From the NCBI RefSeq assembly GCF_018866325.1, contig NZ_CP076457.1:806001-870000 (forward strand): a stretch of DNA of 64,000 nt. Reading direction: 5' to 3'. Position numbers and translations under genes: made by a program. Source of the stretch: Streptomyces sp. YPW6. Its GTDB lineage: Bacteria > Actinomycetota > Actinomycetes > Streptomycetales > Streptomycetaceae. This document shows, one piece after another, positions 10,127 through 23,318 of this stretch. Position 1 is the first letter of the stretch, and every line of letters starts with the position of its first letter. The notes beneath the pieces are model-generated. The model ran no database searches. It saw only the letters and a program-made list of their open reading frames with translations, and was not told where the DNA came from.

Positions 10127-11215
10127 TCAGTCGCCGCAGCGGCCCTCGCGCAGCGAGTGCAGGTGCTCGCTGGACTTCCGGGCGAAGGCGAGGGAATCCA
10201 CCGGGTTGTCGTGCTCGGCCTGCCAGTGGTGGTAGGTCCGGCCGTGATGCGTCCGCCGCGTGACCTCGGACAGGAACGTCCTGTAGTCGATGTCCCCGTC
10301 GCCCACGTCCGACATGCGGTAGCCGTCGCGGGTCGTCTCGTCGCGCACCCCGTCCTTGACGTGGAAGAGGGGGTAGCGGTTCGGGTGCTTGAGGACGTAC
10401 CTCAGCGGGTCGAGCGGGGCCGGGGTGCCGTCCACCCGCTTGCCGAAGCGGAACTGGGCGCAGTACGCCCAGTAGATGTCCATCTCCAGGTAGACGAGAT
10501 CCGGGTCGGTCTCGGCGAGCAGGACGTCGTAGAGGCGGACGTTCGGCTTGTCGGTCGCGAAGGAGAACTCCTCCGCGTGGTTGTGCTGGTAGAACTTCAT
10601 GCCCCGTTTGCGGGCGGCGGCGCCGTACTCGTTGAAGTCGTCGGCCGCGCGCTTCCAGCCGTCCACGGTGGAGCCGTACCGGAACGGTCCTGAGGCCGTG
10701 CCGATGTGCTTGAGGCCGAGCGCCTGGGCGTCGTCGAGGACCTTCTCCAGGTTCTGGGCGAAGGTGTACGCGCCGGGGTTGTTGTCGTCGTAGTAGCCGA
10801 CGTGGCTGCCGATCGGGTTGAGGCCGTGGTCCCGGGCCAGCCGCTTGAGCCGGTCCAGGGTGATGGGGCCGGCCGAGCCCTGGGTGTAGCCCGCGAGTTC
10901 GATCTCGTCGTAGCCGTACTTCTCCAGTTCGGCGAAGACCGGCGCGAAGCCCAGCGTGGAGATCTGGTCGCGGAGGCTGTAGAGCTGGATGCCGAGACGG
11001 CCGGGGGGCAGGACGGGCTTGCCCTTTCCGTGGCCATGGCCGTGTCCGTGATCGTGGTCCTGCCCGTGGCCGTTGCCGTGGCCGCGGCCCCGGTCGGCGG
11101 CCTGGGCGCTCGCGGTGCCGATGATCGTGGCGGCGGTGGCTCCGGCGGCGACACCGAGGATGTTGCGGCGGCTCAGTCTGCGGGCGAGTTCGGTGTCCTT
11201 GGCGGTGCGGCTCAT
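10127..11215 (-). CDS. Tat-exported sugar phosphate isomerase/epimerase-like TIM-barrel protein
   Basis: Exported AP endonuclease family 2/xylose isomerase-like TIM-barrel protein, 362 residues. The start ATG 11213-11215 follows AAGGGAG. The leader has a twin-arginine motif (SRRNILGVAAGATAATIIG) ending AQAA, then a His/Gly-rich linker (GHGNGHGQDHDHGHGHGHG) that could bind metal. The barrel starts at LGIQLYSLRDQI. Likely metal ligands include Glu in VYLEMDIYWA and His in LFHVKDG and NHAEEF. It is the last gene on the strand of the ebo-type operon, 76 bases after eboF. Such secreted members are often found with Gfo/Idh/MocA and DUF1080 proteins in sugar oxidation loci, both of which occur 9-15 kb away. 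Exact substrate unknown. Confidence 0.88.
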   Translation of the reverse strand: MSRTAKDTELARRLSRRNILGVAAGATAATIIGTASAQAADRGRGHGNGHGQDHDHGHGHGHGKGKPVLPPGRLGIQLYSLRDQISTLGFAPVFAELEKYGYDEIELAGYTQGSAGPITLDRLKRLARDHGLNPIGSHVGYYDDNNPGAYTFAQNLEKVLDDAQALGLKHIGTASGPFRYGSTVDGWKRAADDFNEYGAAARKRGMKFYQHNHAEEFSFATDKPNVRLYDVLLAETDPDLVYLEMDIYWAYCAQFRFGKRVDGTPAPLDPLRYVLKHPNRYPLFHVKDGVRDETTRDGYRMSDVGDGDIDYRTFLSEVTRRTHHGRTYHHWQAEHDNPVDSLAFARKSSEHLHSLREGRCGD

Positions 11216-11291
11216 GTTCGGGTGTCTCCCTTGGTTGCCTGGCGGGGTGAGTGGTGCGGTGCGTGCGGTGCCGGGCGCGTGACGGGGATGG

Positions 11292-12710
11292 TCAGTGCAG
11301 TCCGGCAAGCTGGAGGAGCAGGGACTTCACGTCGGTGGCCCTGACCCGGTCGGTGAACGCGTGGGGGGTGGAGCAGAGGATGAGCGGACCTTCGTCGTCG
11401 CTCTCGGGGAGGCGGCCGTGGCTGCCGCGGACGGGTGAGGGGTCCAGGGGGACGACCGCCATGCGGTAGCGCATGCCGAGCTTCTTGCGGGCGACCGCCG
11501 AGACGGCCTTGACCCGGACGTAGGGGTCCTGGGGGTCCATGAAGAGCTCGACGGGGTCGTAGCCGGGCTTGCGGTGGATCTCGACGAGCTGGGCGAAGTC
11601 GGGGGCACGTGCGTCGTCGAGCCAGTAGTAGTACGTGAACCACGCGTCCTTCTCCGCGACGGCGACGAGCTCGCCGGAGCGCGGGTGGTCCAGGTGGTGC
11701 GCCTTCTTGCCCTCGTCGTCGAGGAGCTGATCGATGCCGGGCAGGTCCGCGAGGGCGGCCCGGGCCGCCTCCAGGTCCTCGGGGCGGCGTACGTAGATGT
11801 GGGCGAGCTGGTGGTCGGCGACGGCGAAGGCCCGGGAGGCCATCGGGTCCAGGTATTCCATGCCGTCCTGGGTGTGGACCTCCAGCAGGCCCGCCCGGCG
11901 CAGCGCCCGGTTGATGTCGACGGGCCTGCTCACCCGGGTGATGCCGTACTCGGAGAGCGCCACGACCGTGCGGCCTTCGGCCCGCGCGTCCGCCAGCAGC
12001 GGGGCGATCGCCCGGTCCAGGTCGGCGGCGGACCGGTGGGAGCGGGGGTCGTCGGGGCCGAAGCGCTGGAGGTCGTAGTCCAGGTGCGGCAGATAGCAGA
12101 GGGCGAGGTCGGGGGTGCGGGTGGCGATGATGTGGCGGGTGGCGTCGATGATCCACTGGGAGGAGACGAGGTCGGCGCCGGGGCCCCAGAAGTGGAAGAG
12201 GGGGAAGGTACCGAGTCTGTCGGTCAGTTCGTCGTGCAGGGCGGGCGGCCGGGTGTAGCAGTCGGGTTCCTTGCGGCCGTCGGCGTAGTAGACGGGGCGC
12301 GGGGTGACGGTCCAGTCGGTGTCGGCGCCCATCGCGTACCACCAGCAGATGTTGGCGACCGTGTAGCCGGGGTGGGCGCGGCGGGCGGCGTCCCACAGTT
12401 TGTCGCCCTCGACGAGGCCGTTGTGCTGCCGCCACAGCAGGACGTCGCCGAGCTCGCGGAAGTACCAGCCGTTGGCGACGATGCCGTGCTCGGCGGGCAT
12501 CGCGCCGGTGAGGAAGGTCGACTGGGCCGCGCAGGTGACGGCGGGCAGGACGGTGGAGAGGGGGGCCTGCGCGCCCTGCTTCCCGAGGGACCGGAGGTTC
12601 GGCATGTGGGCCAGCAGGCGCGGGGTGAGGCCGACGACGTCGAGGACGAGGAGGGGGGTGGGACCGCCGGTTGCGCGTGCGGTGGCCGTGCCGGGGTCGG
12701 GCGCGCTCAT
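11292..12710 (-). CDS. eboF: EboF-like alkaline phosphatase superfamily/nucleotide pyrophosphatase-type protein
   Basis: Cytoplasmic phosphodiesterase/phosphatase-like protein of 472 residues. The early region LLVLDVVGLTPRLLAHMPNL and AVTCAAQSTFLTGAMPAEHG shows the metal-binding Asp and the Thr/Ser nucleophile region of type I phosphodiesterases; later metal ligands are seen in YLPHLDYDLQRFGPD and AVADHQLAHIYV. Its start overlaps the stop of the EboE gene by four bases (ATGA). In cyanobacterial ebo clusters an enzyme of this superfamily (EboF) is encoded with EboA, B, C and E, and the same set is present here. Substrate not established; a phosphorylated or lipid-linked intermediate of the pathway is likely. 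Confidence 0.85.
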   Translation of the reverse strand: MSAPDPGTATARATGGPTPLLVLDVVGLTPRLLAHMPNLRSLGKQGAQAPLSTVLPAVTCAAQSTFLTGAMPAEHGIVANGWYFRELGDVLLWRQHNGLVEGDKLWDAARRAHPGYTVANICWWYAMGADTDWTVTPRPVYYADGRKEPDCYTRPPALHDELTDRLGTFPLFHFWGPGADLVSSQWIIDATRHIIATRTPDLALCYLPHLDYDLQRFGPDDPRSHRSAADLDRAIAPLLADARAEGRTVVALSEYGITRVSRPVDINRALRRAGLLEVHTQDGMEYLDPMASRAFAVADHQLAHIYVRRPEDLEAARAALADLPGIDQLLDDEGKKAHHLDHPRSGELVAVAEKDAWFTYYYWLDDARAPDFAQLVEIHRKPGYDPVELFMDPQDPYVRVKAVSAVARKKLGMRYRMAVVPLDPSPVRGSHGRLPESDDEGPLILCSTPHAFTDRVRATDVKSLLLQLAGLH

Positions 12711-13882
12711 GGCAGCTCCTTGAGGCCGAGGTCGACCAGGAGGTCGCGGGCGAGGGTGAGTTCGGCGGCGATGCCGTCGGCGAGCTGGGTACGGGTGCGG
12801 GGCCGCAGCTCCGCGGGCAGCGCCTGCCAGGTGTACGTCTCGACCTCCAGGTGCCGGGTCAGCGGCGCGGGTCCGCCGACCAGCCGGGCGAGCGTGTCCC
12901 GGAGCACGGGGAGCGTCGAGGTCAGCGGGGGCGCCGGGGGTGCGTGCAGCGGTACGTGGAAGTGGGCGCGCCAGGGGGTGGAGTCCGGGAGCGCCCGGCC
13001 GGCGACGGCCTCGTCCAGGTCGTCGGTGCCGCGCAGGCCAGCCGCGGTGCTGGTGCGGGTCTGGTGCAGGAAGCGGGGCTCGGCGAACGCGCCGAGCGCG
13101 GCGCGGACCTCGGGCAGGTGCGGGTGCTCGGCGTGCAGGGCGGCGGAGAGCTGGGACTTGACGATGCGGACACCCGCGCCGGACAGGGCGTCGAGCGCGG
13201 TCGCGGGGTCCTCGAAGGAGGTGGCGAGGTGGCAGGTGTCGACGCAGATGCCGATGCGCTCGTGGCCGACCTCGGTGAGCGGGGCGATCGCGTCGGCGGT
13301 GGTCTCGACGGTGCAGCCCGGTTCCGGTTCGAGGCCGACGCGGATGGATGAGCCGGTCGTCTCGGCCAGGGCGTCGAGGCGCTGGGCGAGGGTGGTGAGG
13401 GCGGAGCGCGCCGCGCGGGCCGCCTCGGGGTCGCTGTCGTAGGGGGTGCGCCAGGCGAGGGGCAGGGTGGAGATCGTGCCCTCGGTGGCGTCGTCCGGGA
13501 GCAGGGCGGCCAGCAGGCGGGCGAGGTCGGTGGTGTGGGCGAGGCGGTCGGGTTCGGTCCAGTCCGGCCGGTAGACCCGGTATTTGACCTCGTCCGCGCC
13601 GAACCCTTCGTACGGGAAGCCGTTGAGCGTGACCACTTCGAGGCCGCGGCTGTCGAGTTCGGAGCGGAGGGCGCGCAGTTCGGCGGGGTCGTTGATCAGG
13701 GTGCGGGCGGCGTCCCGGGCGAGCCAGAGGCCGATGCCGAGCCGGTCCCGGCCGAGGCGGCGGCGGACGGGTTCGCAGTGGTCGCGGAGCTGGGCGCGGA
13801 CGCCGTCGAGGGTTTCGGCGGGGTGGACGTTGGTGCAGTAGGCGAGATGGACGGTGGAGCCGTCCGAGTGGCGGAAGCGCAT
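12707..13882 (-). CDS. eboE: metabolite traffic protein EboE, TIM barrel
   Basis: A 391-residue xylose-isomerase-like TIM-barrel protein. It starts MRFRHSDGSTVHLAYCTNVH, the conserved opening of EboE proteins, and keeps VVTLNGFPYEGF, VGLEPEPGCTVE (metal Glu) and ICVDTCHLATSF (metal Asp and His), then HFHVPLHAPP near the C-terminus. It follows eboB with an 8-base gap and overlaps eboF by four bases. In Nostoc the ebo genes are needed to move the scytonemin monomer from cytoplasm to periplasm; the biochemical activity of EboE is unknown. Conserved metal ligands suggest it is an enzyme. Confidence 0.9.
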   Translation of the reverse strand: MRFRHSDGSTVHLAYCTNVHPAETLDGVRAQLRDHCEPVRRRLGRDRLGIGLWLARDAARTLINDPAELRALRSELDSRGLEVVTLNGFPYEGFGADEVKYRVYRPDWTEPDRLAHTTDLARLLAALLPDDATEGTISTLPLAWRTPYDSDPEAARAARSALTTLAQRLDALAETTGSSIRVGLEPEPGCTVETTADAIAPLTEVGHERIGICVDTCHLATSFEDPATALDALSGAGVRIVKSQLSAALHAEHPHLPEVRAALGAFAEPRFLHQTRTSTAAGLRGTDDLDEAVAGRALPDSTPWRAHFHVPLHAPPAPPLTSTLPVLRDTLARLVGGPAPLTRHLEVETYTWQALPAELRPRTRTQLADGIAAELTLARDLLVDLGLKELP

Positions 13883-13889
13883 GGCCGCC

Positions 13890-14738
13890 TCACTCCCCGC
13901 CGCGCAGGACGGAGTTGCCCTCGTGGAGCGGGTCGGGGGTGAGCACGTCCAGCCGGAGGCGGCCGCTCTGGCCGTAGAAGGCGACGGGGTTGCGCCACAG
14001 GACCTGGTCGACGTCGTCCTCGGTGAAGCCGGCCTTCAGCATCGCGTCGGCGACCTTGCGGGTCTTGAGGGGGTCGCTGTTCCCCCAGTCGGCGGCCGAG
14101 TTGACGAGCATCTTCTCGGTGCCGTGGTTCTGGAGGATGGTGACCATGCGGTCCTCGTCCATCTTGGTGTCCGGGTAGATGGAGAACCCGGACCAGCAGC
14201 CGCTGTCAGTGGCGGCCTTTACGGTGGTCTCGTTGAGGTGGTCGAGCAGGACGAGCTCCGGGGGGAGGTCCGATTCGCGGATGACGTCGATGGTGCGGTG
14301 GAGACCGGCGAGCTTGTCGCGGTGCGGGGTGTGGACGAGGGCGGGCAGCCCGTGGTCGACGGCGAGCTGGAGCTGGGCGGCCAGCGCGTGGTCCTCGGCC
14401 GGGGTCATCGAGTCGTAGCCGATCTCGCCGACGGCGACGACGGAGTCCTTCACGAGGTAGCGGGGCAGCGCGTCCAGGACGGGGATGCAGCGGGGGTCGT
14501 TGGCCTCCTTGGGGTTGAGGGCGAGCGTGCAGTGGTGGGCTATGCCGTACTGGGAGGCGCGGAAGGGCTCCCAGCCGAGCAGCGCGTCGAAGTAGTCGAA
14601 GAAGCTGGCGGGCGAGGTGCGGGGCTGGCCGAGCCAGAAGGAGGGCTCGACGAGTGCGCGGACGCCCGCGTCGTACATCGCCCGGTAGTCGTCGGTGGTG
14701 CGCGAGGTCATGTGGATGTGGGGGTCGAAGATGCGCAT
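13890..14738 (-). CDS. eboB: EboB-like TatD-family metal hydrolase
   Basis: A 282-residue TIM-barrel amidohydrolase. The two-metal site can be followed: FDPHIHM (H-x-H), VGEIGYDS (Glu), LVHTPHRDK (His), LLDHLNETT (His) and VNSAADWG (Asp). Start ATG overlaps the eboA stop by one base. Compared with DNase TatD proteins it has a longer insert around WLGQPRTSPASFFDYFDALL and belongs to the EboB type found in ebo operons. Hydrolysis of a phosphoester, lactone or amide in the pathway is possible; DNase activity is not implied. Confidence 0.88.
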   Translation of the reverse strand: MRIFDPHIHMTSRTTDDYRAMYDAGVRALVEPSFWLGQPRTSPASFFDYFDALLGWEPFRASQYGIAHHCTLALNPKEANDPRCIPVLDALPRYLVKDSVVAVGEIGYDSMTPAEDHALAAQLQLAVDHGLPALVHTPHRDKLAGLHRTIDVIRESDLPPELVLLDHLNETTVKAATDSGCWSGFSIYPDTKMDEDRMVTILQNHGTEKMLVNSAADWGNSDPLKTRKVADAMLKAGFTEDDVDQVLWRNPVAFYGQSGRLRLDVLTPDPLHEGNSVLRGGE

Positions 14739-15466
14739 CAGGACTCCTCCGTGGGGGCGGGGGCTGCGGTCGGGTCGGCCGGGTGGCCGCCCTCGCCGGC
14801 CGGGGCGCTGCTGTCCAGGGCATGCCCCAGGACCGTGCGCAGGTCTTCGGGGACGGGGCGGCCCGCCGCGGTGCGTTCGGCGGCGAAGTCGCGGAGCATG
14901 CGGCCGAGTTCGGCGTCACCCCGGGCCCGGCTTCCCAGCCGGGCGACGGCCGTGACGGGTACCTCGGTGAACAGGCACTTCAGCACGGCGTGCCGCCAGG
15001 CGTGCGGGTCGAGGTGGTCGGCGGCGTAGGGGCCGACGGCTGCGGCGACCAGCCGGGTGTCGTTGGCGCGCAGGGCGTCCTCGACGAGTGGGAGGGCGGT
15101 GTCGCCGAGGTCGAGGAGGTGCAGGGTGAGCAGGACGGCGCGGCGTTCGGCGGCGGTGCCCTGTTCGTAGAGCCGGGTGACGGAGGTCAGCGGGGCGCGG
15201 GCCTCGACGAGCAGGAGGGAGCGTACGGAGTCGGCGTGCTCGGGTCCGCAGTGCCGGCCCGCAGTGGCGTAGCGCAGCTCCCAGGACGGGAAGGCGTAGG
15301 GGCTCGCCTCGCGGCGGGGGGCATCGTGCACGGCCCCCACATCGTGCGCGGCCTCGGCATCGTGCGCGGCCTCGGCATCGTGCGCGGCCTCGGCCAGGGC
15401 CTCGTCCAGCCAGGCGCGGGCGGCCCCGCCGAGTTCGGCCTCCAGTTCCTTGCGGGACTTCAGCAC
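14738..15466 (-). CDS. eboA: EboA domain-containing protein
   Basis: A 242-residue protein of the EboA type, mainly helical, starting LKSRKELEAELGGAARAWLD. Characteristic segments are ASPYAFPSWELRYATAGRHC, ARAPLTSVTRLYEQGTAAER and the double run DHLDPHAWRHAVLKCLF. No catalytic motif is visible. Near residues 25-50 an 18-bp tandem repeat encodes four copies of an AAHDAE-like hexapeptide, an insertion not needed for the fold. Its start overlaps the stop of the upstream TIM-barrel gene by seven bases. EboA is essential in ebo loci but of unknown function. Confidence 0.88.
   Translation of the reverse strand: MLKSRKELEAELGGAARAWLDEALAEAAHDAEAAHDAEAAHDVGAVHDAPRREASPYAFPSWELRYATAGRHCGPEHADSVRSLLLVEARAPLTSVTRLYEQGTAAERRAVLLTLHLLDLGDTALPLVEDALRANDTRLVAAAVGPYAADHLDPHAWRHAVLKCLFTEVPVTAVARLGSRARGDAELGRMLRDFAAERTAAGRPVPEDLRTVLGHALDSSAPAGEGGHPADPTAAPAPTEES
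15322..15393 (-). repeat. 18-bp tandem repeat inside eboA
   Basis: Four head-to-tail 18-bp units begin at 15322, 15340, 15358 and 15376 (consensus CATCGTGCGCGGCCTCGG). The last three are identical, the first diverged. Being a multiple of three, copy changes would alter only the number of hexapeptides in EboA. Confidence 0.9.
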
Positions 15467-16332
15467 GGGGCGGCTCCCTTCGTCGCGGTACCGCGCGTCA
15501 TCGCGTCGCGCAGGAAGTCGATCGATCTGCTGGCCAGCTCGGGGCCGGCGTGGGAGTGGCGGGGCAGTTCGACGACGGCGAGGCCCCGGTAGTCCGAGGC
15601 GGCCAGGGCGGCCAGCACGGGTGGGAAGTCGATCTCCCCGTCACCGAACGGCAGGTGCTCGTGGACTCCGCGCCTCATGTCCTCGATCTGGACGTGCCGG
15701 AGCCAGGGGGCGGAGTCCTTGACGCACTCCACGGGCGAGGCGTCCTCCAGGCACTGGCAGTGGCCGATGTCGAGGGTGAGGCCGAGCGGTCCCGGGTCGC
15801 CCAGGAGACCGCGCAGGTGGTGGAAGTCGGCGAGGGTGGCGAGGAGGTGGCCGGGTTCGGGCTCGATCGCGAGGGGGATGCCGGAGCGGTCGGCGGCTTC
15901 GAGGACGGGGGTGAGCGCTTCGGTGAGCCGTTTCCACGCGGTGTCCGGCGAGGTGCCGGGCGGGGTGACGCCGCTGAAGCAGTGGACGGCGTGCGCGCCG
16001 AGTTCGGCGGCCACGTCGACGGCGCGGACCAGCAGCGCGGTGCGGGCGGCCCGGGCAGTGGGGTCCGGGTCGAGGAGGGAGGGGCCGTGCTTGCGGCGCG
16101 GGTCGAGGACATAGCGGGCGCCGGTCTCCACGGTCACCCGGAGCCCGAGGGAGGTCAGCCGGCGGCGGACCTGGCGGGTGCGCTCGGTGAGGTCCGGGGC
16201 CATCGGGTCCAGGTGCATGTGGTCGAGGGTCAGGCCGACGCCCTCGTAGCCGAGGTCGGCGAGCAGACCGAGGGCGTCGTCGAGGCGGAGGTCGGTGAGC
16301 CCGTTGGTGCCGTAGCCGAGGTGGAGGGTCAT
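15460..16332 (-). CDS. sugar phosphate isomerase/epimerase-like TIM-barrel protein
   Basis: A 290-residue AP2-endonuclease/xylose-isomerase-like protein without a signal peptide. It begins LGYGTNGLTDLRLDDALGLL, and metal ligands expected for the family are visible: Glu in LAIEPEPGHLLATL, Asp and His in LGLTLDIGHCQC, and the pair HVQIEDMRRGVHEHLPFGDG, with a final Glu in LAVVELPRHSH. The ATG at 16330-16332 overlaps the eboC stop by four bases. It is the second cytoplasmic TIM-barrel protein of this operon besides EboE; possibly it acts on an inositol- or ketose-type intermediate. The substrate is inference only. Confidence 0.87.
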   Translation of the reverse strand: MTLHLGYGTNGLTDLRLDDALGLLADLGYEGVGLTLDHMHLDPMAPDLTERTRQVRRRLTSLGLRVTVETGARYVLDPRRKHGPSLLDPDPTARAARTALLVRAVDVAAELGAHAVHCFSGVTPPGTSPDTAWKRLTEALTPVLEAADRSGIPLAIEPEPGHLLATLADFHHLRGLLGDPGPLGLTLDIGHCQCLEDASPVECVKDSAPWLRHVQIEDMRRGVHEHLPFGDGEIDFPPVLAALAASDYRGLAVVELPRHSHAGPELASRSIDFLRDAMTRGTATKGAAPC

Positions 16333-18076
16333 GTGAGGCTCACCTTCCGGGCGAGGCTGCGGGCGAGGGGGACGAGCGCCATGACGGCGAGACCGGTGAC
16401 GGGTGATCCGGCGCGGGCGGCGAGGACGGCCTGGAGCGGGATCATGGCCCGGATGCCCCCGCCGACCGCCCGCTGGGTCAGGGGCGGCGACGGGTTCAGT
16501 ACGGCGTGCAGGAGGGGCGGTCCGGCCGTACGGAGGTAGGCCCCGGTGAAGGCGAGGGTCAGCAGCCGGGTGGAGTCGGCGAGGGTCCTGCCGGGCAGCC
16601 TGTCGGGGAGTGCGGCGGGACGCGGGCTCGCGGCGGGGCCGACGGCCCGGACGAGACGTGCCGCCACGCGCGGGGCGGTGCCGGAGGCGGCGGGGCTGAT
16701 CGTCGTGGCGTGCCGCGCGCGAGCGGAGTCCGCCGTCGCCGCGGCAGGGTCTCCCGGGCTCTCTCGCCGCCACTCCCCCAGCACCGCTGCCGCGAGTGCC
16801 GTCGTCGTGGCGAGGACCGCGAGCGGCGTACGTGTGGAGCCGCCCGTGGTCTCGTGGCGCGACACGGCGGTGACGCCGTAGGTGTGCGCCCCGAGCACCA
16901 GAGCAGCCGGCAGCGCGGCCAGGCCGGGCGGGGCGGACGTGACGGCCGAGCCGGGCGGGGCGGACGTGACGGGCAGGACCGGCAGGACGGGAGCGGACGC
17001 GGTCGGCGCGCCCGGAGGCGGCAGCGCGTTCCCGCTCGCGGGCGCCGGCGCCCCGGCCGCCCGGTCCTCTGTACGGCGTCCGCCCGGAGCGCGCCCGGCC
17101 GTGACCGTGGCGCCCGCCGAGGGCGGGGCGTCGCCGTCGCCGCGGCCCCCAGCAGGAGGTCCAGCGAGCGAGCCGCCGCCATCGCCGCGGGGCCCGCCTT
17201 CGTGTGCTTCAGCCCCAGGTCGTAGGCCCAGACCGTGGTCGCCAGGCCCGTGGCCACCGTCAGCGCGGGGCGGCCGGCACGGGCCGCGAGGGCGAGGCCC
17301 GCGGCGGTCAGCAGCCCGGCCGTGCCCAGGGCCGCCGCCGGGCTGATGCGGCCCGAGGGGATCGGGCGGTGCGGACGGTCGACGGCGTCCTCGTCGCGGT
17401 CGGCCCAGTCGTTGAGGGCCATTCCCGCCTCGTACAGGCAGAGCGACGCCCCGATCGCCAGGACGGTACCCCGGCCGGGCCGGCGGCCGACCGCCGCGGC
17501 GCCCGCAAGGGCGTCTCCCGGCACGGAGAACAGGGCGGAGACACGCAGCAGTTCCGCCCAGGCCCGCAGGCGCTGCCGGGACGCCCCCGGGCCGGCGCCC
17601 GCACCGCCGTCCGAGCCGAAGGCTGTCGCCGTGCCCGGGGGGTTGCCCGCCCCGTCGGCCGGTCCGCGACCCGAGGCACTGCCCGGGACATGTACCCCAC
17701 CCGAGGTCCCCGGGACGTCGGCCGGCCCCGGGCCCGAATCGACGGCCGAGCGGCGGCCCGGGGCCGTACCCGATCCGACGCCTGCGGCCGTGCCCGAGGC
17801 AGTGCCCGCTCCGGTGCCGGATCCCACGCCCGGCCCTGAGGCCGCGTTCGGCCGGCCCGGGCCCGTGTCCGCGCCGTGTTCCCCGTGCCGGCCCGTGGGC
17901 GGTGGTACGGGCCTGTCCGGTGCGGGCGCAGTCCCACCCGCACCGGACAGGCTGTCCTGGGTCACGGCGTCCGTCCGCACACCGCGGGCCGCACCGTTGC
18001 GCCGAGCGGGCCCGTCCGGGAGCACCGACAGGGCCGCGAGGAGCGCGGCCGGAAGGACCTGCCCCCGCCGCCTCAC
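16329..18076 (-). CDS. eboC: EboC-like (SCO3242 family) UbiA prenyltransferase, apparent frameshift
   Basis: Membrane prenyltransferase of the UbiA superfamily that would attach an isoprenoid to a pathway intermediate. The first aspartate motif is clear, ALNDWADRDEDAVDRPHRP, and the second region is AYDLGLKHTKAGPAAMAAAR. These are in the frame that starts at 18076 and overlaps the inositol phosphate synthase stop by ATGA. After LDLLLGAAATATP (about 17125) the homologous reading continues in another frame (LGAHTYGVTAVSRHETTGGS ... ALVPLARSLARKVSLT) to the stop at 16329. Adding one base within the GC-rich stretch around 17110-17150 would restore one protein. About 180 low-complexity Gly/Pro/Ala residues precede the domain, so the true start may be internal. 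A sequencing error or a real inactivation are both possible. Confidence 0.75.
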
Positions 18077-19275
18077 GCCTCATCCCGCAGTCGTCCGGCG
18101 AAGGTCAGCAGGGTGGCGTACTGCTCGGCGAGTGCCGCCGATGTACCGCCGTCCGGGTCCTTGAAGTAGAAGCCGAGCTCCGGCAGGGGTCCGCTGATCC
18201 CGGCCTCGTGGGCGCGGGCCAGCAGCCGGGCCAGGTCCAGGACGAGCGGGGCGGCGAGGGCGGAGTCGCAGCCCTGCCAGATGGTCTGGAGGATCATCCG
18301 GGAGCCGAGAAATCCGTCGAAGGCGATGTGGTCCCAGGCGGTCTTCCAGTCGCCCATGGCGGGCACGTCGTCGATGTGCACCTCGCCCTCGGGGGCGGTC
18401 CCGAAGGTGTCGGCGAGGACGCGTTCCTTGCCGGCGTTCTTGGCGGCGGCGGCCGCCGGATCGGCCAGCGCCGCCCCGTCCCCGCCGCCCAGGAGGTTCG
18501 TCCCCGACCACGCCCGTACGGGGAGGGCGCGCTGGAGGAACATCGGGGCGAGCACGGAGCGGAGCAGCGTCTGGCCGGTCTTGCCGTCGCGTCCGGCGTG
18601 GGGAAGTGCGCTGGAGGCGACGGTGTCGGTGAGCGCGGAGGTGCGCAGCCCGGTGGACGGCGTGAAGTTGGCGTAGGAGCAGCCGGCGCGCAGGGCGGCG
18701 GCCGCGTAGAGGGAGCTGGGGGGCAGCCGGGGGTCGCCGGGCCGGGAGGCGGGTTCGGTGGAGGCGACGTTGATCACGACGGTGCGGGCCAGGTCGTGGC
18801 GGTGGGCGAAGTCGGTCAGGTCGGCGGCGAACGCGGCGATGAGTTCCTGGTCGGTCCGGGTGTCGCCGGGGAGCGGACCGCCGGGGCGTATCTCCGTGTC
18901 GGCGGCGTCGAGTTCGGCGCGTACGGCCGGGGGAAGCCCGTGCGGGAGGACGCCGCCGTCGGCCAGGGCCTCGGCCCGCTTGGACAGCGGGCAGTCGAGG
19001 GTGTCGTGGCCGCCGAAGACCAGGTCGGTCAGGGCGGGCAGTCCGCTGCCGGCGAAGGGGGCCGTCTCGGTGACCATGCCGGTCGGCGGGTGGAGGCCCG
19101 CGGCGATGGCGGCGCAGCCCGCGGTGGCGGTGGTCGCCACGGAGCCGCGTGCTCCGATGAACCAGACCCCGGTGCGGCCCGATGTCCCCGCGGGGCCGGG
19201 GGCCTCGGAGGTGAGCGGCGCGTCGGTTCGGCCTGGGACGTCGGTTCTGCCGTCACGATCGGCGTGTGCGGTCAC
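18073..19275 (-). CDS. inositol-3-phosphate synthase (myo-inositol-1-phosphate synthase type)
   Basis: NAD-dependent cyclase converting glucose 6-phosphate to inositol 3-phosphate, 400 residues. Start GTG after AGGAGG. The Rossmann motif is GVWFIGARGSVATTAT (about residue 36). Further family motifs are SYANFTPSTG, the GRDGKTGQTLLRSVLAPMF loop, SGTNLLGGGDG and DHIAFDGFLGSRMILQTIWQ in the C-terminal half. The first 35 residues are Asp/Thr-rich and variable. It is the first gene of the ebo-type operon and resembles the S. coelicolor SCO3243-type enzyme next to SCO3242, not the short housekeeping actinobacterial enzyme. It may supply a cyclitol for the pathway. Confidence 0.88.
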   Translation of the reverse strand: MTAHADRDGRTDVPGRTDAPLTSEAPGPAGTSGRTGVWFIGARGSVATTATAGCAAIAAGLHPPTGMVTETAPFAGSGLPALTDLVFGGHDTLDCPLSKRAEALADGGVLPHGLPPAVRAELDAADTEIRPGGPLPGDTRTDQELIAAFAADLTDFAHRHDLARTVVINVASTEPASRPGDPRLPPSSLYAAAALRAGCSYANFTPSTGLRTSALTDTVASSALPHAGRDGKTGQTLLRSVLAPMFLQRALPVRAWSGTNLLGGGDGAALADPAAAAAKNAGKERVLADTFGTAPEGEVHIDDVPAMGDWKTAWDHIAFDGFLGSRMILQTIWQGCDSALAAPLVLDLARLLARAHEAGISGPLPELGFYFKDPDGGTSAALAEQYATLLTFAGRLRDEA

Positions 19276-19366: not shown

Positions 19367-22300
19367 CTACTTCGAGGGCAGCTCCTTCAGTTGGATGTTG
19401 CGGAAGGACACCTGGTCGTCGGCTCCGTGGTTCTGGAGGCCGATGTAGCCGTCCTTCAGGCTGCGGGCCGGGTCCGTGTTGGTGAAGTCGTTGATCTTCA
19501 CTCCGTTGAGGAAGACGCGCAGACGTTCGCCCTGGACCTTGATCTCGTAGCTGTTCCACTGGCCCGGCGGCCGCAGGACGCGGTCACGGGCCTTGATGTT
19601 GGCCGACTTGAAGGTGTAGACGGCCCCGGTGGTCCGGTCGGCGGTGTCGGTGGCGTCGATCTGGATCTCGTACCCGTTGTCGACCGCCGACCAGGGGTCG
19701 TCGGACTCGGGGTAGCCAACGAAGACCCCGGAGTTGTCGTCACCGGCCACCTTCCAGTCGAGCTTCAGCGAGTACGACGTCAGTTCCTTGGCCTGATACG
19801 TGAGCAGGCCCATGCCGCCCTCGGAGTGCAGGGCGCCGTCGCTGACGGAGAACCTCCCCGGGCCCGCCTGCTTCCACCCCTGAAGCGTCTTGCCGTTGAA
19901 AATCGGCCGATAGTCGGTGTCCGGCTTGCAGTCGGCCTTCACCTGGCCGGTGGCATAGCGCAGGCCACCCAGCACGTGGCTGCGGAAGGCGGGTTCGGCG
20001 TAGGACTCCTTGGTGTGGCCGAGACCGGTGTAGAAGGAGCGGCCGCCCTGGTAGGTCTGGCACCAGGAGATCGGGTGGTCGCCCTTCATGTTCCCGCCGG
20101 TGTAGGTGGTCTCGTCGAGCGTGGCGAGAACCTTGGCCTTGTCCCGGGGATTGGTGCGGTAGTTGTACCACTCGTCGGTGCGCTCCCACTCCTCGTCCAG
20201 ATGGTCGGTGGCGGGGTGGTCGTGGTCCTCGACGCGGACGGTGGCGGGCTGGATCTGCGGGTGGGAGTCGAAGTAGGCGCCGACGAGGCCGCCGTAGAAC
20301 TCCCAGTCGTACTCGGTGTCGGCGGCGGCGTGGATGCCCACGTAGCCGCCTCCGTTGGCGACGTAGTTCTCGAACGCCTTCTGCTGATCGGCGTTGAGGA
20401 CGTCACCGGTGGTGGAGAGGAACGCGACGGCGTCGTAGCGGGCCAGGTTGCTGGTGGTGAACTGGGCGGCGGACTCGGTGGAGTCGACCGTGATGTCGGT
20501 GTCCTCGCCGATCTCCTTCAGGGCCTCGATGCCCGCGGGGATCGAGTCGTGGCGGAAGCCGGCGGTCTTGGAGAAGACCAGGACGCGCTTGGCGGTCCTG
20601 TCGACCGGGGTGCTGGAGAGTTCGAAGTCGTCGATGTCGTAGAGCGCTCCGTCGCCGCCCTTGAAGACGAGGAAGAGTTCGGTCTGCTTCCGGGGCGCGC
20701 CGCGCAGCGGGATGTCGATGTCCTGGAAGGTGTCCCAGCTTCCGGTCACCGGGACGGGCCCGGAGCCGAGGATCTTGCCGGTGGGCGATCCGGTGCGGAC
20801 TTCGAGGAAGCCGCCGGAGCCGGCCGAGGAGATCCGGGCGGTGAGCCTGGCGGTGTCGCCGAGGACGTAGGTCCGGAAGGAGATCCAGTCGTCGTCGTGG
20901 ATGTCGCCGACGGTCTTTCCGCCGTGCGCGCTGGACTTGCTCGGCGTGGTGACGCCGGAGGAGTCGTCGAAGTGCTCGGCCTGGCGGTGCCTGGGCTGGA
21001 GCCGCGAGGCGTCCTTGCCGGTCAGCGCGGCCTGGCCACCACCGCCGTTGTCGGTGTACGAGGCCGAAATGCCGCCGTAGATGTTGGCGTTGGGGTCGTG
21101 TCCGCCTTCCATGGCGGTCTTGATGGTTCCCTCGCAGCCGTGCTCGGTGGTGATGTCGTGGCCGTGGCTGTCGTGTCCCAGGGTGAACTTGACCTCGACC
21201 TCGGTGCAGTCGATGGTCCCGTCCTCCGGGTCGCTGACGTTGACCTTGAAGGGCACGGAGTCGCCGAACTCGAAGAGCTGCCCGTCCTCGGGGAGCACCA
21301 GGTCCACGGTGGGGGCGGTGTTGCCGACGGTGACGTGGACGCTGGCGGAACCGGTGCGGCCGGTCGGGTCCTCGGCGGTGAGGGTGGCGGTGTAGGTGCC
21401 GTTCTTCCTGTACGTGTGCGTGGGGTCGGCGGCGGTGGAGGTCTTGCCGTCACCGAAGTCCCAGGAGTAGGTGAGCGGGTCGCCGTCGCCGTCCGCCGTG
21501 CCGGCCGAGGAGAACCTCACCTTCAGGGGCGCGGTGCCCGACGTCTTGTTCGCCGAGGCCTCGGCGATGGGCGAGCGGCCTCCGGTGGCGTTCTCGATGC
21601 GGTAGAGTGCGGAGTTCTCGTCGCCGCCGAACCAGGCGAGGCCGTAGTCGAGGACGTAGAGCGCCCCGTCGGGGCCGAAGGCCATGTCCATGATCTGGGT
21701 GCCGGACCAGGGAACGTCGTTGATGGACTGGACGGCACCGTCGGCGTCCTGCTCGATGCGCTTGATCCACCTGCGCCCGAACTCGCCGGCGAAGAAGTCG
21801 CCGTCGTAGGCCTCGGGGAACTTGACCGGGGAGTCGAGGCCCGCGTCGTAGCGGTAGACGGGGCCGCCCATGGGGGACTCGGAGCCGGAGCCGAACTCGG
21901 GCACCGAGCCGCCGTCGTAGGGGATCCACGCGGCCTCGGCCGGCGGCAGGTCGACCAGTCCGGTGTTGTGCGGCGACTCGTTCTTCGGGGCGGCGCAGTC
22001 GAAGGCGGCGCCGGAGGTCCTGGTGGCGAAGTCGTAGTCGATGTACGGCTCGTTGTCGCCGACGCAGAAGGGCCAGCCGAAGTTGGCGGCCTTCGTCACC
22101 CGGGCGAACTCGACCTTCCCGGCGGGTCCGCGCCCCGGGTCGGCCGCGCCCGCGTCGGGGCCGTAGTCACCGACGTACACGGTGCCGGTGGCCCGGTCCA
22201 CGGAGAAGCGGAAGGGGTTGCGGAAGCCCATCGCGTAGATCTCGGGGCGGGTCCTGTCCGTGCCCGGTTCGAAGAGGTTGCCTTCGGGGATGGTGTACGA

Positions 22301-23086
22301 GCCGTCGTCGGCCACCTTGATGCGCAGGATCTTGCCCCGCAGGTCGTTGGTGTTGCCCGAGGTGCGGCGGGCGTCGAACGCCGGGTTGCGGTCGGGGCGT
22401 TCGTCGATCGGGGTGAAGCCGTCGGAGGCGAAGGGATTGGTGTCGTCGCCGGTCGAGAGGTAGAGGTTGCCGTCCTGGTCGAAGTCGATGTCACCGCCGA
22501 CGTGGCAGCAGATGCCGCGCGAGGTGGGGACGTCCAGGACCTTCTTCTCGCTGGCGGTGTCGAGGGTGCCGTCCTCGTTGAGGACGAAGCGGGAGAGGCG
22601 GTTGACGCCGTCGAACTTCGCGAAGTCCTCGGCGGTTCCGGTCTCCGGAGCGTCGCCCGCCGGGGTGTCCATCGGGGGCGCGTAGAAGAGGTAGATCGCC
22701 CGGTTCTCGGCGAAGTCCGGGTCGACGCCGACGCCTTGGAGTCCTTCCTCGTCGTGCGTGTACACGGGGAGGGTGCCGGAGATCCGGGTGTTGCCGGCGC
22801 TGTCGGTGATCCGCAGCTCGCCGCCCCGCGAGGTGTGCAGCACGCTGCGGTCGGGGAGGACGGCGAGCGACATGGGCTCGCCGGTCTCCTCGACCCCCTT
22901 GGCGAGGGTGACTTGCTGGAAGTCCTCCGCCACGGGCTCGTCGTGCCCGGGGTGGCCCGGGTGGGCGGCGGCACCGGGAGCGGAGCCGAGGGTCAGGGTG
23001 GCGGCGGCGAGCAGGCCGCCGGTGAGCAGGGCGAGGGTCTTCCGGACGCGGGTCCGGGCCAGGAGCCGCTTTCTGGTTCTGTGCAC
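19367..23086 (-). CDS. secreted multidomain sugar dehydrogenase-PKD-CBM-ThuA-DUF1080 protein
   Basis: Exported protein of about 1239 residues. GTG at 23084-23086 follows GGAGG and opens a signal peptide (KTLALLTGGLLAAATLTLG, AAAHPG). Domains in order: PQQ-type glucose/sorbosone dehydrogenase beta-propeller (about 50-500; GICCHVGGDIDFDQDGNLYL, AMGFRNPFRFSVDRATG), PKD domain (about 515-590; LTYSWDFGDGKTSTAADPTH), a short linker, CBM6-like carbohydrate-binding domain (about 700-830), ThuA-like domain (about 830-1050; GGGYVGIHAAADTEYDWEFY) and a C-terminal DUF1080/3-keto-disaccharide hydrolase domain (about 1055-1239; FNGKTLQGWKQ, DNSGVFVGYPESD). Together it could bind a glycoside, oxidise it and cleave the keto form outside the cell. 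A terminator follows. Domain order is clear, the combined activity is inference. Confidence 0.9.
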   Translation of the reverse strand: MHRTRKRLLARTRVRKTLALLTGGLLAAATLTLGSAPGAAAHPGHPGHDEPVAEDFQQVTLAKGVEETGEPMSLAVLPDRSVLHTSRGGELRITDSAGNTRISGTLPVYTHDEEGLQGVGVDPDFAENRAIYLFYAPPMDTPAGDAPETGTAEDFAKFDGVNRLSRFVLNEDGTLDTASEKKVLDVPTSRGICCHVGGDIDFDQDGNLYLSTGDDTNPFASDGFTPIDERPDRNPAFDARRTSGNTNDLRGKILRIKVADDGSYTIPEGNLFEPGTDRTRPEIYAMGFRNPFRFSVDRATGTVYVGDYGPDAGAADPGRGPAGKVEFARVTKAANFGWPFCVGDNEPYIDYDFATRTSGAAFDCAAPKNESPHNTGLVDLPPAEAAWIPYDGGSVPEFGSGSESPMGGPVYRYDAGLDSPVKFPEAYDGDFFAGEFGRRWIKRIEQDADGAVQSINDVPWSGTQIMDMAFGPDGALYVLDYGLAWFGGDENSALYRIENATGGRSPIAEASANKTSGTAPLKVRFSSAGTADGDGDPLTYSWDFGDGKTSTAADPTHTYRKNGTYTATLTAEDPTGRTGSASVHVTVGNTAPTVDLVLPEDGQLFEFGDSVPFKVNVSDPEDGTIDCTEVEVKFTLGHDSHGHDITTEHGCEGTIKTAMEGGHDPNANIYGGISASYTDNGGGGQAALTGKDASRLQPRHRQAEHFDDSSGVTTPSKSSAHGGKTVGDIHDDDWISFRTYVLGDTARLTARISSAGSGGFLEVRTGSPTGKILGSGPVPVTGSWDTFQDIDIPLRGAPRKQTELFLVFKGGDGALYDIDDFELSSTPVDRTAKRVLVFSKTAGFRHDSIPAGIEALKEIGEDTDITVDSTESAAQFTTSNLARYDAVAFLSTTGDVLNADQQKAFENYVANGGGYVGIHAAADTEYDWEFYGGLVGAYFDSHPQIQPATVRVEDHDHPATDHLDEEWERTDEWYNYRTNPRDKAKVLATLDETTYTGGNMKGDHPISWCQTYQGGRSFYTGLGHTKESYAEPAFRSHVLGGLRYATGQVKADCKPDTDYRPIFNGKTLQGWKQAGPGRFSVSDGALHSEGGMGLLTYQAKELTSYSLKLDWKVAGDDNSGVFVGYPESDDPWSAVDNGYEIQIDATDTADRTTGAVYTFKSANIKARDRVLRPPGQWNSYEIKVQGERLRVFLNGVKINDFTNTDPARSLKDGYIGLQNHGADDQVSFRNIQLKELPSK

Positions 23087-23318
23087 GTGGGTCCTCCGGA
23101 GAGTGCCGGTTGTACGGGCGGGTGCAGCCGTGCCGTGCCGCGCGGGGACTGCCGCGCGTGCGTCACCGGAGTCGGGAGCGACCCCGGTGACGCGAGTCAT
23201 GTCGTGTACACGAAGGGGACGGTAGACCTGTTCGTCCTCGGCGGAAAGCCCTTGTGCAACGGGCGGGCCGAACTTCTTCTTCCTTCAGGACAAAGAGGTT
23301 TTCGGGCAGGGCGAGGCA

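Follow-up and report, generated by a model that had tools for sequence, protein, structure and literature searches.

An ebo-type operon headed by an inositol-3-phosphate synthase instead of EboD in Streptomyces sp. YPW6 and other actinomycetes

Why should an inositol-3-phosphate synthase stand at the head of an ebo operon? The question is raised by a 64,000-nucleotide stretch of the Streptomyces sp. YPW6 genome (the window; positions 806001-870000 of contig NZ_CP076457.1, which at 7.70 Mb is a single-contig genome rated 99.99% complete). Within it, seven minus-strand genes run from position 19275 down to 11292 in the order INO1, eboC, TIM1, EboA, EboB, EboE and EboF, with ends that overlap or nearly touch. 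A preliminary description of this DNA had proposed that an inositol-3-phosphate synthase (INO1) leads an ebo-type operon without the cyclase EboD, accompanied by an additional TIM barrel protein (TIM1) and by another barrel with a twin-arginine (Tat-type) signal, and profile matches confirmed these genes (Table 1; NCBIfam and Pfam profiles, each with its own cut-off). We found that the exchange of EboD for INO1 is the rule in actinomycetes, and we give roughly an even chance to the reading that this actinomycete form of ebo makes a prenylated, inositol-derived membrane molecule. The anatomy of the operon and its linkage to INO1 are firm, and the product is what we infer from them.

INO1 exceeded the cut-offs for both domains of its family (PF07994, 115.6 bits against 25; PF01658, 97.7 bits against 27), and its best relative in the PDB was the Archaeoglobus fulgidus Ino1, 1u1i (E 5.9e-55). 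N255, K274, K278, K306 and K367 of the A. fulgidus enzyme, which we take to be its catalytic residues (N255, K278 and K367 are the positions altered in PDB entries 3qw2, 3qvw and 3qvx), align to N260, K279, K283, K311 and K372 of INO1, and at least 95% of 93 actinobacterial INO1s retain them. PF07994 matched the operon copy alone in the whole genome. A separate housekeeping Ino1 of the mycothiol type is encoded at 3.77 Mb (729.7 bits), whereas the operon INO1 scored 19.2 bits on the mycothiol Ino1 model TIGR03450 against a cut-off of 638; the operon enzyme is therefore a second, different one, and we rejected it as the housekeeping enzyme. This very low score, together with a superfamily relative named as a five-membered-cyclitol-phosphate synthase (6k96), might alternatively indicate that INO1 forms a non-inositol cyclitol phosphate nearer in shape to the EboD product. 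We consider this unlikely, since INO1 is much nearer to A. fulgidus Ino1 than to 6k96 (E 3.7e-7) and all five catalytic positions are kept. As for EboD itself, its reported absence was upheld: PF01761 detected none in the operon or anywhere in the 7.70 Mb genome, so that the six-gene form is incomplete here. The genome-wide matches were AroB (145.1 bits) and one match below cut-off (22.1 bits), whose open reading frame by eye resembles an sn-glycerol-1-phosphate-dehydrogenase-type protein, and we rejected the idea of an EboD elsewhere in this genome. The comparisons support the proposal that INO1 stands in for EboD.

The association extends well beyond this strain. In an even draw of 394 Actinomycetes genomes, EboE exceeded its cut-off in 90 and PF07994 in 89, with both present in 85 (Fisher p 1.2e-74 over the 394 genomes, kinship ignored); one of the 85, G419, has an INO1 of a non-ebo type. 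PF07994 lay within 8 kb of EboE at 82 of 94 EboE loci, a count that omits second pieces of one gene and rows under cut-off. We fetched 100 loci, comprising 81 EboE loci from the class draw that were not yet in hand and 19 from a second draw of 396 genomes of the phylum, and called operons those having EboE and at least three of EboA, EboB, EboC and EboF. By this rule 94 were operons, with INO1 in 86, EboD in one, both in none and neither in seven; all five core genes together with an INO1 match of 150 bits or more were present in 84, and TIM1 lies beside INO1 in 83 of the 86. Among 80 Streptomyces loci chosen for resemblance to the EboE of the window, INO1 was present in 64 of the 66 with enough upstream sequence, and 11 more operons were truncated by contig ends. 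Six of the seven loci in the actinobacterial plasmid-collection records that we opened were operons, all six with INO1, while L126 consisted of EboE alone. When the 394 genomes were queried with the Ketogulonicigenium EboD (up to four candidates scored per genome), the best match reached 160.3 bits at 35% identity, compared with the 339-421 bits (tblastn) scored by the EboDs of eight opened loci. The ebo/INO1 arrangement exceeds chance, and neither of the two findings that the preliminary description had named as refuting its proposal was obtained: the YPW6 genome has no EboD elsewhere, and INO1 is generally linked to ebo genes.

The same counts bear on the simplest alternative, that INO1 serves ordinary inositol metabolism (phosphatidylinositol, mycothiol) and lies beside ebo genes by chance. 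INO1 is indeed an inositol phosphate synthase by family, and actinomycetes normally contain inositol lipids. We nevertheless find this alternative very improbable given the full housekeeping Ino1 elsewhere in the genome, the presence of PF07994 in 85 of 90 EboE genomes and its proximity to EboE, the overlapping start and stop codons of the operon, and the recurrence of the INO1-ebo pairing in Gemmatimonadota.

Operons lacking INO1 were of several kinds. L157, L188 and L189 end at contig breaks and have a PF07994 match on another contig; in L183 (G419) the sole PF07994 match is the non-ebo-type INO1 on another contig (L244); and L123 is degraded, with EboE below cut-off. L106 (G128) and L149 (G659) are second ebo copies in genomes having INO1 elsewhere, and in both a flavin adenine dinucleotide oxidoreductase and an inositol-monophosphatase-family gene replace INO1 (PF00459 in L106, a like open reading frame in L149). 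The sole EboD-type operon of the phylum draw, L109 (G381), has no EboA or TIM1 match. The Streptomyces loci L059 and L080 lack INO1 despite the presence of upstream sequence; L059 also carries two partly interleaved EboA-EboB-EboE-EboF sets without EboC. Fourteen of the 96 PF07994 rows were not near EboE, and ten of these were fetched (G458, G575, G667 and G728 were left out). L248 proved to be an ebo operon truncated where its contig ends, L252 holds the INO1 belonging to a Streptomyces locus that is split (the full copy of the gene that is a fragment in L153), and the branch leading to the INO1 of L251 (G457) is very long. Six of the 81 class-draw loci failed the operon rule, namely L163, which has INO1, and L170, L199, L202, L213 and L214, which encode EboE-like proteins without nearby ebo genes. 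A family of shorter EboE paralogues, which match model positions 1-242 at about 172-192 bits, was seen repeatedly in one genome family, and the weak paralogues L215-L217 were left out of all counts.

Outside the actinobacteria, at least 16 plasmid records had EboE, of which ten were opened (a single record each for the five from Ketogulonicigenium and the three from Mycetohabitans). Nine of the ten operons encode a 3-dehydroquinate-synthase-type EboD (Mycetohabitans, Ketogulonicigenium, Roseivivax, two Salipiger, Azospirillum, two Deinococcus and Aureibacter). In the tenth, from Gemmatirosa kalamazoonensis (Gemmatimonadota), INO1 and TIM1, each at 47% identity, lie next to EboC, EboF, EboB and EboE. 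In trees of chosen subsets (42-44 rows), the Gemmatirosa INO1 grouped with the ebo-type INO1s against L243-L247 (99/92), while its EboE fell on the EboD side of a 100/100 split, its EboF nested with EboD-type EboFs (95/92) and its EboB joined those of Deinococcus and L109 (100/100). An INO1 is thus combined with EboE, EboF and EboB of the EboD lineage, and the cyclase therefore seems to change independently of the ebo core. At six type-telling positions of EboC, defined from 13 and 8 sequences in a comparison of 22 rows, the Gemmatirosa protein has three INO1-type residues (P15, A16, D23), two EboD-type residues and one of neither type; perhaps EboC changes partly along with the cyclase. The earlier suggestion that alternative cyclases feed one pathway is strengthened by this operon.

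Established at the level of sequence, then, are the gene set and its order, the missing EboD, the intact active site of INO1, the wide INO1-ebo linkage and, in the operons examined, the alternation of EboD with INO1. On this basis INO1 and EboD would be two ways of making the ring within one prenylation pathway, each able to replace the other as the source of a polyhydroxylated ring for EboC. Inositol phosphate synthases convert glucose 6-phosphate to inositol 3-phosphate, and INO1 would do the same. TIM1 and EboE, whose superfamily comprises isomerases, epimerases and dehydratases, might reshape the ring; the nearest models for TIM1 are hydroxypyruvate isomerase, IolO and IolE, and its PDB match is a UlaE-type epimerase (3cqh, E 1.5e-7). 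EboC, by family a membrane prenyltransferase, would attach a prenyl chain at the membrane. All 96 of 96 sequences have its residues N57, D58, D61, D65 (the NDxxDxxxD motif) and R140, and 92 have D143; R140 and D143 seem, when matched by motif and not by alignment to the Nostoc protein, to correspond to the two acceptor residues that have been named in Nostoc EboC, Arg142 and Asp145 (PMC6282210). EboB, whose H7, H9, E105, H136, H167 and D217 are shared by at least 95% of 104 sequences, may together with EboF trim or remodel the adduct. EboA might keep the enzymes together: its AlphaFold2 model is all-helical (mean predicted local distance difference test score 92.4), nearest to HEAT-type repeats and without a clear known relative. 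For Nostoc, transfer of the scytonemin monomer to the periplasm is reported to require the ebo genes (PMC6282210), and by analogy the finished lipid could help to move or oxidise metabolites at the outer side of the membrane. The suggestion in the preliminary description that the product is itself exported and then processed outside found no support in these comparisons.

EboF has an altered metal site. Its seven positions corresponding to D, T, D, H, D, H and H, placed by alignment to the genome's own PF01663 protein (L239) and presumably the ligand and nucleophile sites of canonical two-zinc NPP/alkaline-phosphatase enzymes, read V26, T59, D211, Q215, E254, Y255 and H431. Four of the seven canonical metal-site residues are thus missing and the canonical two-zinc site is absent, so that EboF is unlikely to be an ordinary two-metal enzyme. 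These letters are invariant at each position among the 97-102 sequences having a residue there (103 aligned), EboD-type operons included.

A number of observations weigh against a dedicated pathway to a prenylated inositol. EboF is without most metal ligands, though earlier authors assumed it to act on phosphate, calling it a phosphate-acting hydrolase (PMC5133447). EboE occurs without PF07994 in five of the 394 genomes, and TIM1 is missing from three of the 86 INO1 operons (L137, L139 and L158); it is hence not essential, and we rejected it as an obligatory partner. INO1 also occurs outside ebo operons: L244-L247 have a sister-type INO1 and TIM1 some kilobases apart and lack ebo genes (L247 has a YcaO protein nearby, L244 and L246 a methyltransferase-like one), and in L249 (G504) and L250 (G635) the 14 kb fetched around an ebo-type INO1 contain no ebo gene. 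Neither INO1 nor the INO1-TIM1 pair is therefore specific to ebo. INO1 and TIM1 resemble a transferable pair for ring-making that also serves a second pathway. Such a pair would suit a modular swap, yet it makes dedication to ebo a weaker claim. In Gemmatirosa, PF01761 was absent from the 1.04 Mb plasmid, the only replicon searched, and its chromosome might encode an EboD; its EboE is placed within the EboD-type group with support of just 93/86; and in the EboC tree, where the EboD type forms one side (96/89), the Gemmatirosa protein lies between both types. D143 is replaced by V in two EboD-type EboCs checked (L131, L132). The literature that we found gives no product, intermediate or phenotype for the INO1-type variant. 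Finally, the acceptors that Ubi-297/EboC enzymes farnesylated in E. coli, 8-hydroxyquinoline-2-carboxylic acid and quinaldic acid (PMC9235831), are aromatic compounds and not cyclitols. As a separate observation, a ThuA-protein match lies near the ebo-less INO1 of L249.

The aromatic acceptors lead to another alternative, in which IolE-like barrels oxidise and dehydrate the inositol phosphate to a polyphenol that EboC then prenylates, giving a new prenyl(hydro)quinone as an electron carrier for oxidations outside the membrane. The usual acceptors of UbiA enzymes are aromatic rings. EboC homologues prenylate such rings in vitro (PMC9235831), both TIM1 and the barrel flanking the operon weakly match the inosose dehydratase IolE, and some loci adjoin genes for secreted or membrane oxidation (GSDH, ScyD/ScyE, multicopper oxidase, pyrroloquinoline quinone-dependent dehydrogenase). 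However, the core is without a conserved dehydrogenase for inosose formation, the IolE scores are 39.5 and 24.9 bits against a cut-off of 290, and no such quinone is known to us. We judge this route quite unlikely and continue to favour the prenylated inositol-derived molecule. A wider generalisation appears improbable, namely that ebo is a modular factory for unknown membrane cofactors, in which several cyclases (EboD, or INO1 with TIM1) supply rings that EboC prenylates to an inositol-derived prenyl lipid or prenylquinone driving oxidations at the outer face (of the scytonemin monomer, of 3-keto-glycosides or in antibiotic tailoring).

The genes of the window copy are tightly packed (Table 1). 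Start and stop codons overlap as GTGA at INO1/eboC and as ATGA (4 bases) at eboC/TIM1 and EboE/EboF, the overlaps at TIM1/EboA and EboA/EboB are 7 bases and 1 base, and the gene order of EboB and EboF is the same in relatives. The ebo genes lie where the preliminary description had placed them, but the gap between EboB and EboE is 7 bases instead of 8, and eboC, taken there as a single intact open frame, is split. NF045897 positions 1-146 matched at 242.4 bits in one frame (open reading frame 16559-18076) and positions 146-287 at 134.8 bits in another (16329-18083), the cut-off for the whole protein being 260 bits, and the frame switch falls near 17,116-17,150. About 170 residues precede the family domain in the eboC reading frame. 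Both halves were below cut-off for the EboC model NF035940 (79.9 bits against 250 for the larger half). Because the halves share one open frame in all 63 Streptomyces relatives with both halves (80 loci searched), the window copy is either broken or misassembled. The ebo pathway may be inactive in YPW6, eboC being interrupted or misread there; intact copies are common among relatives.

Table 1. Features of the ebo-type operon and its flanks, with positions in the window.
Feature	Positions	Strand	Profile match
INO1, archaeal-type inositol-3-phosphate synthase	18073..19275	(-)	PF07994, PF01658
eboC, SCO3242-family UbiA-type prenyltransferase, frame-split, low-complexity N-terminal extension	16329..18076	(-)	NF045897
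TIM1, xylose-isomerase-like TIM barrel	15460..16332	(-)	PF01261, 154.9 bits
EboA, predicted all-helical solenoid	14738..15466	(-)	NF035938, 156.5 bits (above cut-off 50)
EboB, TatD-like metal-dependent hydrolase	13890..14738	(-)	PF01026, 44.2 bits (above cut-off 27)
EboE, TIM barrel	12707..13882	(-)	NF035939, 429.5 bits (above cut-off 250)
EboF, alkaline-phosphatase-superfamily protein, altered metal site	11292..12710	(-)	PF01663, 228.5 bits (above cut-off 23)
Twin-arginine-signal TIM barrel (SRRNILGVAA), flanking, outside the core ebo genes	10127..11215	(-)	PF01261, 62.3 bits
Large secreted-type protein, GSDH + PKD + CBM6 + ThuA + 3-keto-disaccharide hydrolase	19367..23200	(-)	

Both flanks of the operon encode proteins of a different character. 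The large secreted-type protein (1277 residues) is encoded on the strand of INO1, 91 bp upstream of that gene, and a homologue of this ThuA/GSDH protein is present in 64 of the 66 Streptomyces loci with more than 6.5 kb upstream of EboE. The Tat-type barrel, which probably starts at the ATG near 11215 and not at the TTG at 11308, is matched in 78 of 80 Streptomyces loci, with identities of only about 35% in many of them. Its nearest PDB entries, 8tcd, 8tcs and 8tct, are to our understanding 3-keto-glycoside enzymes. It had been counted as part of the ebo pathway, an assignment that our comparisons do not support: the protein resembles 3-keto-sugar enzymes and lies outside the shared core. Secreted ThuA, GSDH and 3-keto-disaccharide hydrolase proteins and IolE-like barrels flank many INO1-type operons, and in the Streptomyces plasmid loci L128 and L129 a ScyD/ScyE gene directly precedes INO1 with a multicopper oxidase nearby, oxidation outside the membrane being a recurring theme among ebo neighbours.

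The flanking genes could mean that ebo, the secreted ThuA/GSDH/3-keto-disaccharide hydrolase protein and the Tat-type barrel form a glycoside-use system served by INO1. PF06439 (3-keto-disaccharide hydrolase) lies within 12 kb of EboE in at least 19 of 56 non-Streptomyces ebo genomes, counting the listed matches on the same contig as EboE and some further ones, against 0.71 genomes expected by random placement (three families; kinship ignored), and besides the ThuA homologues of the Streptomyces loci there are similar neighbours in Gemmatirosa. On the other hand, 37 of the 56 genomes have no PF06439 nearby among the matches listed, the annotated stretches of four INO1-led plasmid operons contain none, and the scytonemin and nematode-inedibility phenotypes of ebo mutants are described without a glycoside link in the available text of PMC6282210. 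We therefore regard such a system as doubtful and retain the prenylated inositol-derived molecule as the preferred product. Two INO1-led plasmid operons, L125 and L127, are placed within a type II polyketide cluster and beside nonribosomal peptide synthetase (NRPS) genes. Five Streptomyces plasmid loci had hinted that ebo is generally part of antibiotic clusters, a rule rejected on the 100 drawn loci, where an NRPS match was near ebo in two and a type II ketosynthase match in none (fetched stretches of up to 20 kb).

The prenylated-cyclitol product is an idea already in the literature, proposed in 2016 from EboD and EboC (PMC5133447) and taken up in 2018 (PMC6282210), while the INO1 swap was not found in the open papers searched. 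The 2016 paper noted a xylose-isomerase-like domain joined to actinobacterial EboA and the lack of eboD in some genomes, and a Saccharomonospora ebo cluster has been shown in a paper whose available text mentions EboD only (PMC9235831). No open-access publication found by our search joins ebo genes with an inositol phosphate synthase, and NCBI plasmid annotation names each gene of INO1-type operons separately. As far as these searches reach, the INO1-type ebo operon is real, conserved and undescribed. Ebo genes span cyanobacteria to plastids, and their product is stated in none of the literature found. If two unrelated cyclases serve one pathway, the ring of the product must be one that both can supply, which would sharply narrow the chemistry. 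What inositol phosphate synthases consume and produce is well established, and the actinomycete version would therefore allow the ebo product to be labelled from 13C-glucose or labelled inositol in Streptomyces strains that are easy to handle.

Compared with the six-gene eboABCDEF of cyanobacteria, Bacteroidetes, proteobacteria and eustigmatophyte plastids (PMC5133447, PMC6282210), the window has INO1 and TIM1 in the place of EboD, and its EboC matches, in two halves, the SCO3242 model NF045897 instead of NF035940. The eboG variant of Deinococcus and Herpetosiphon (PMC5133447) likewise has one gene of the six-gene form replaced, but there EboA is replaced and EboD kept (Deinococcus L235, L236), whereas in the window it is EboD that has been replaced and EboA remains. 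SCO3242 and SCO3243 of Streptomyces coelicolor, counted in the calcium-dependent antibiotic (CDA) cluster SCO3210-SCO3249 (PMC3610822), fit the same two families by name (a putative transferase and a myo-inositol phosphate synthase); unlike that cluster, the window gave no match to NRPS or type II ketosynthase queries. INO1 itself shares family, length and catalytic residues with A. fulgidus Ino1 (1u1i) and differs from it in being embedded in an ebo operon, separate from the mycothiol-type Ino1 of its own genome.

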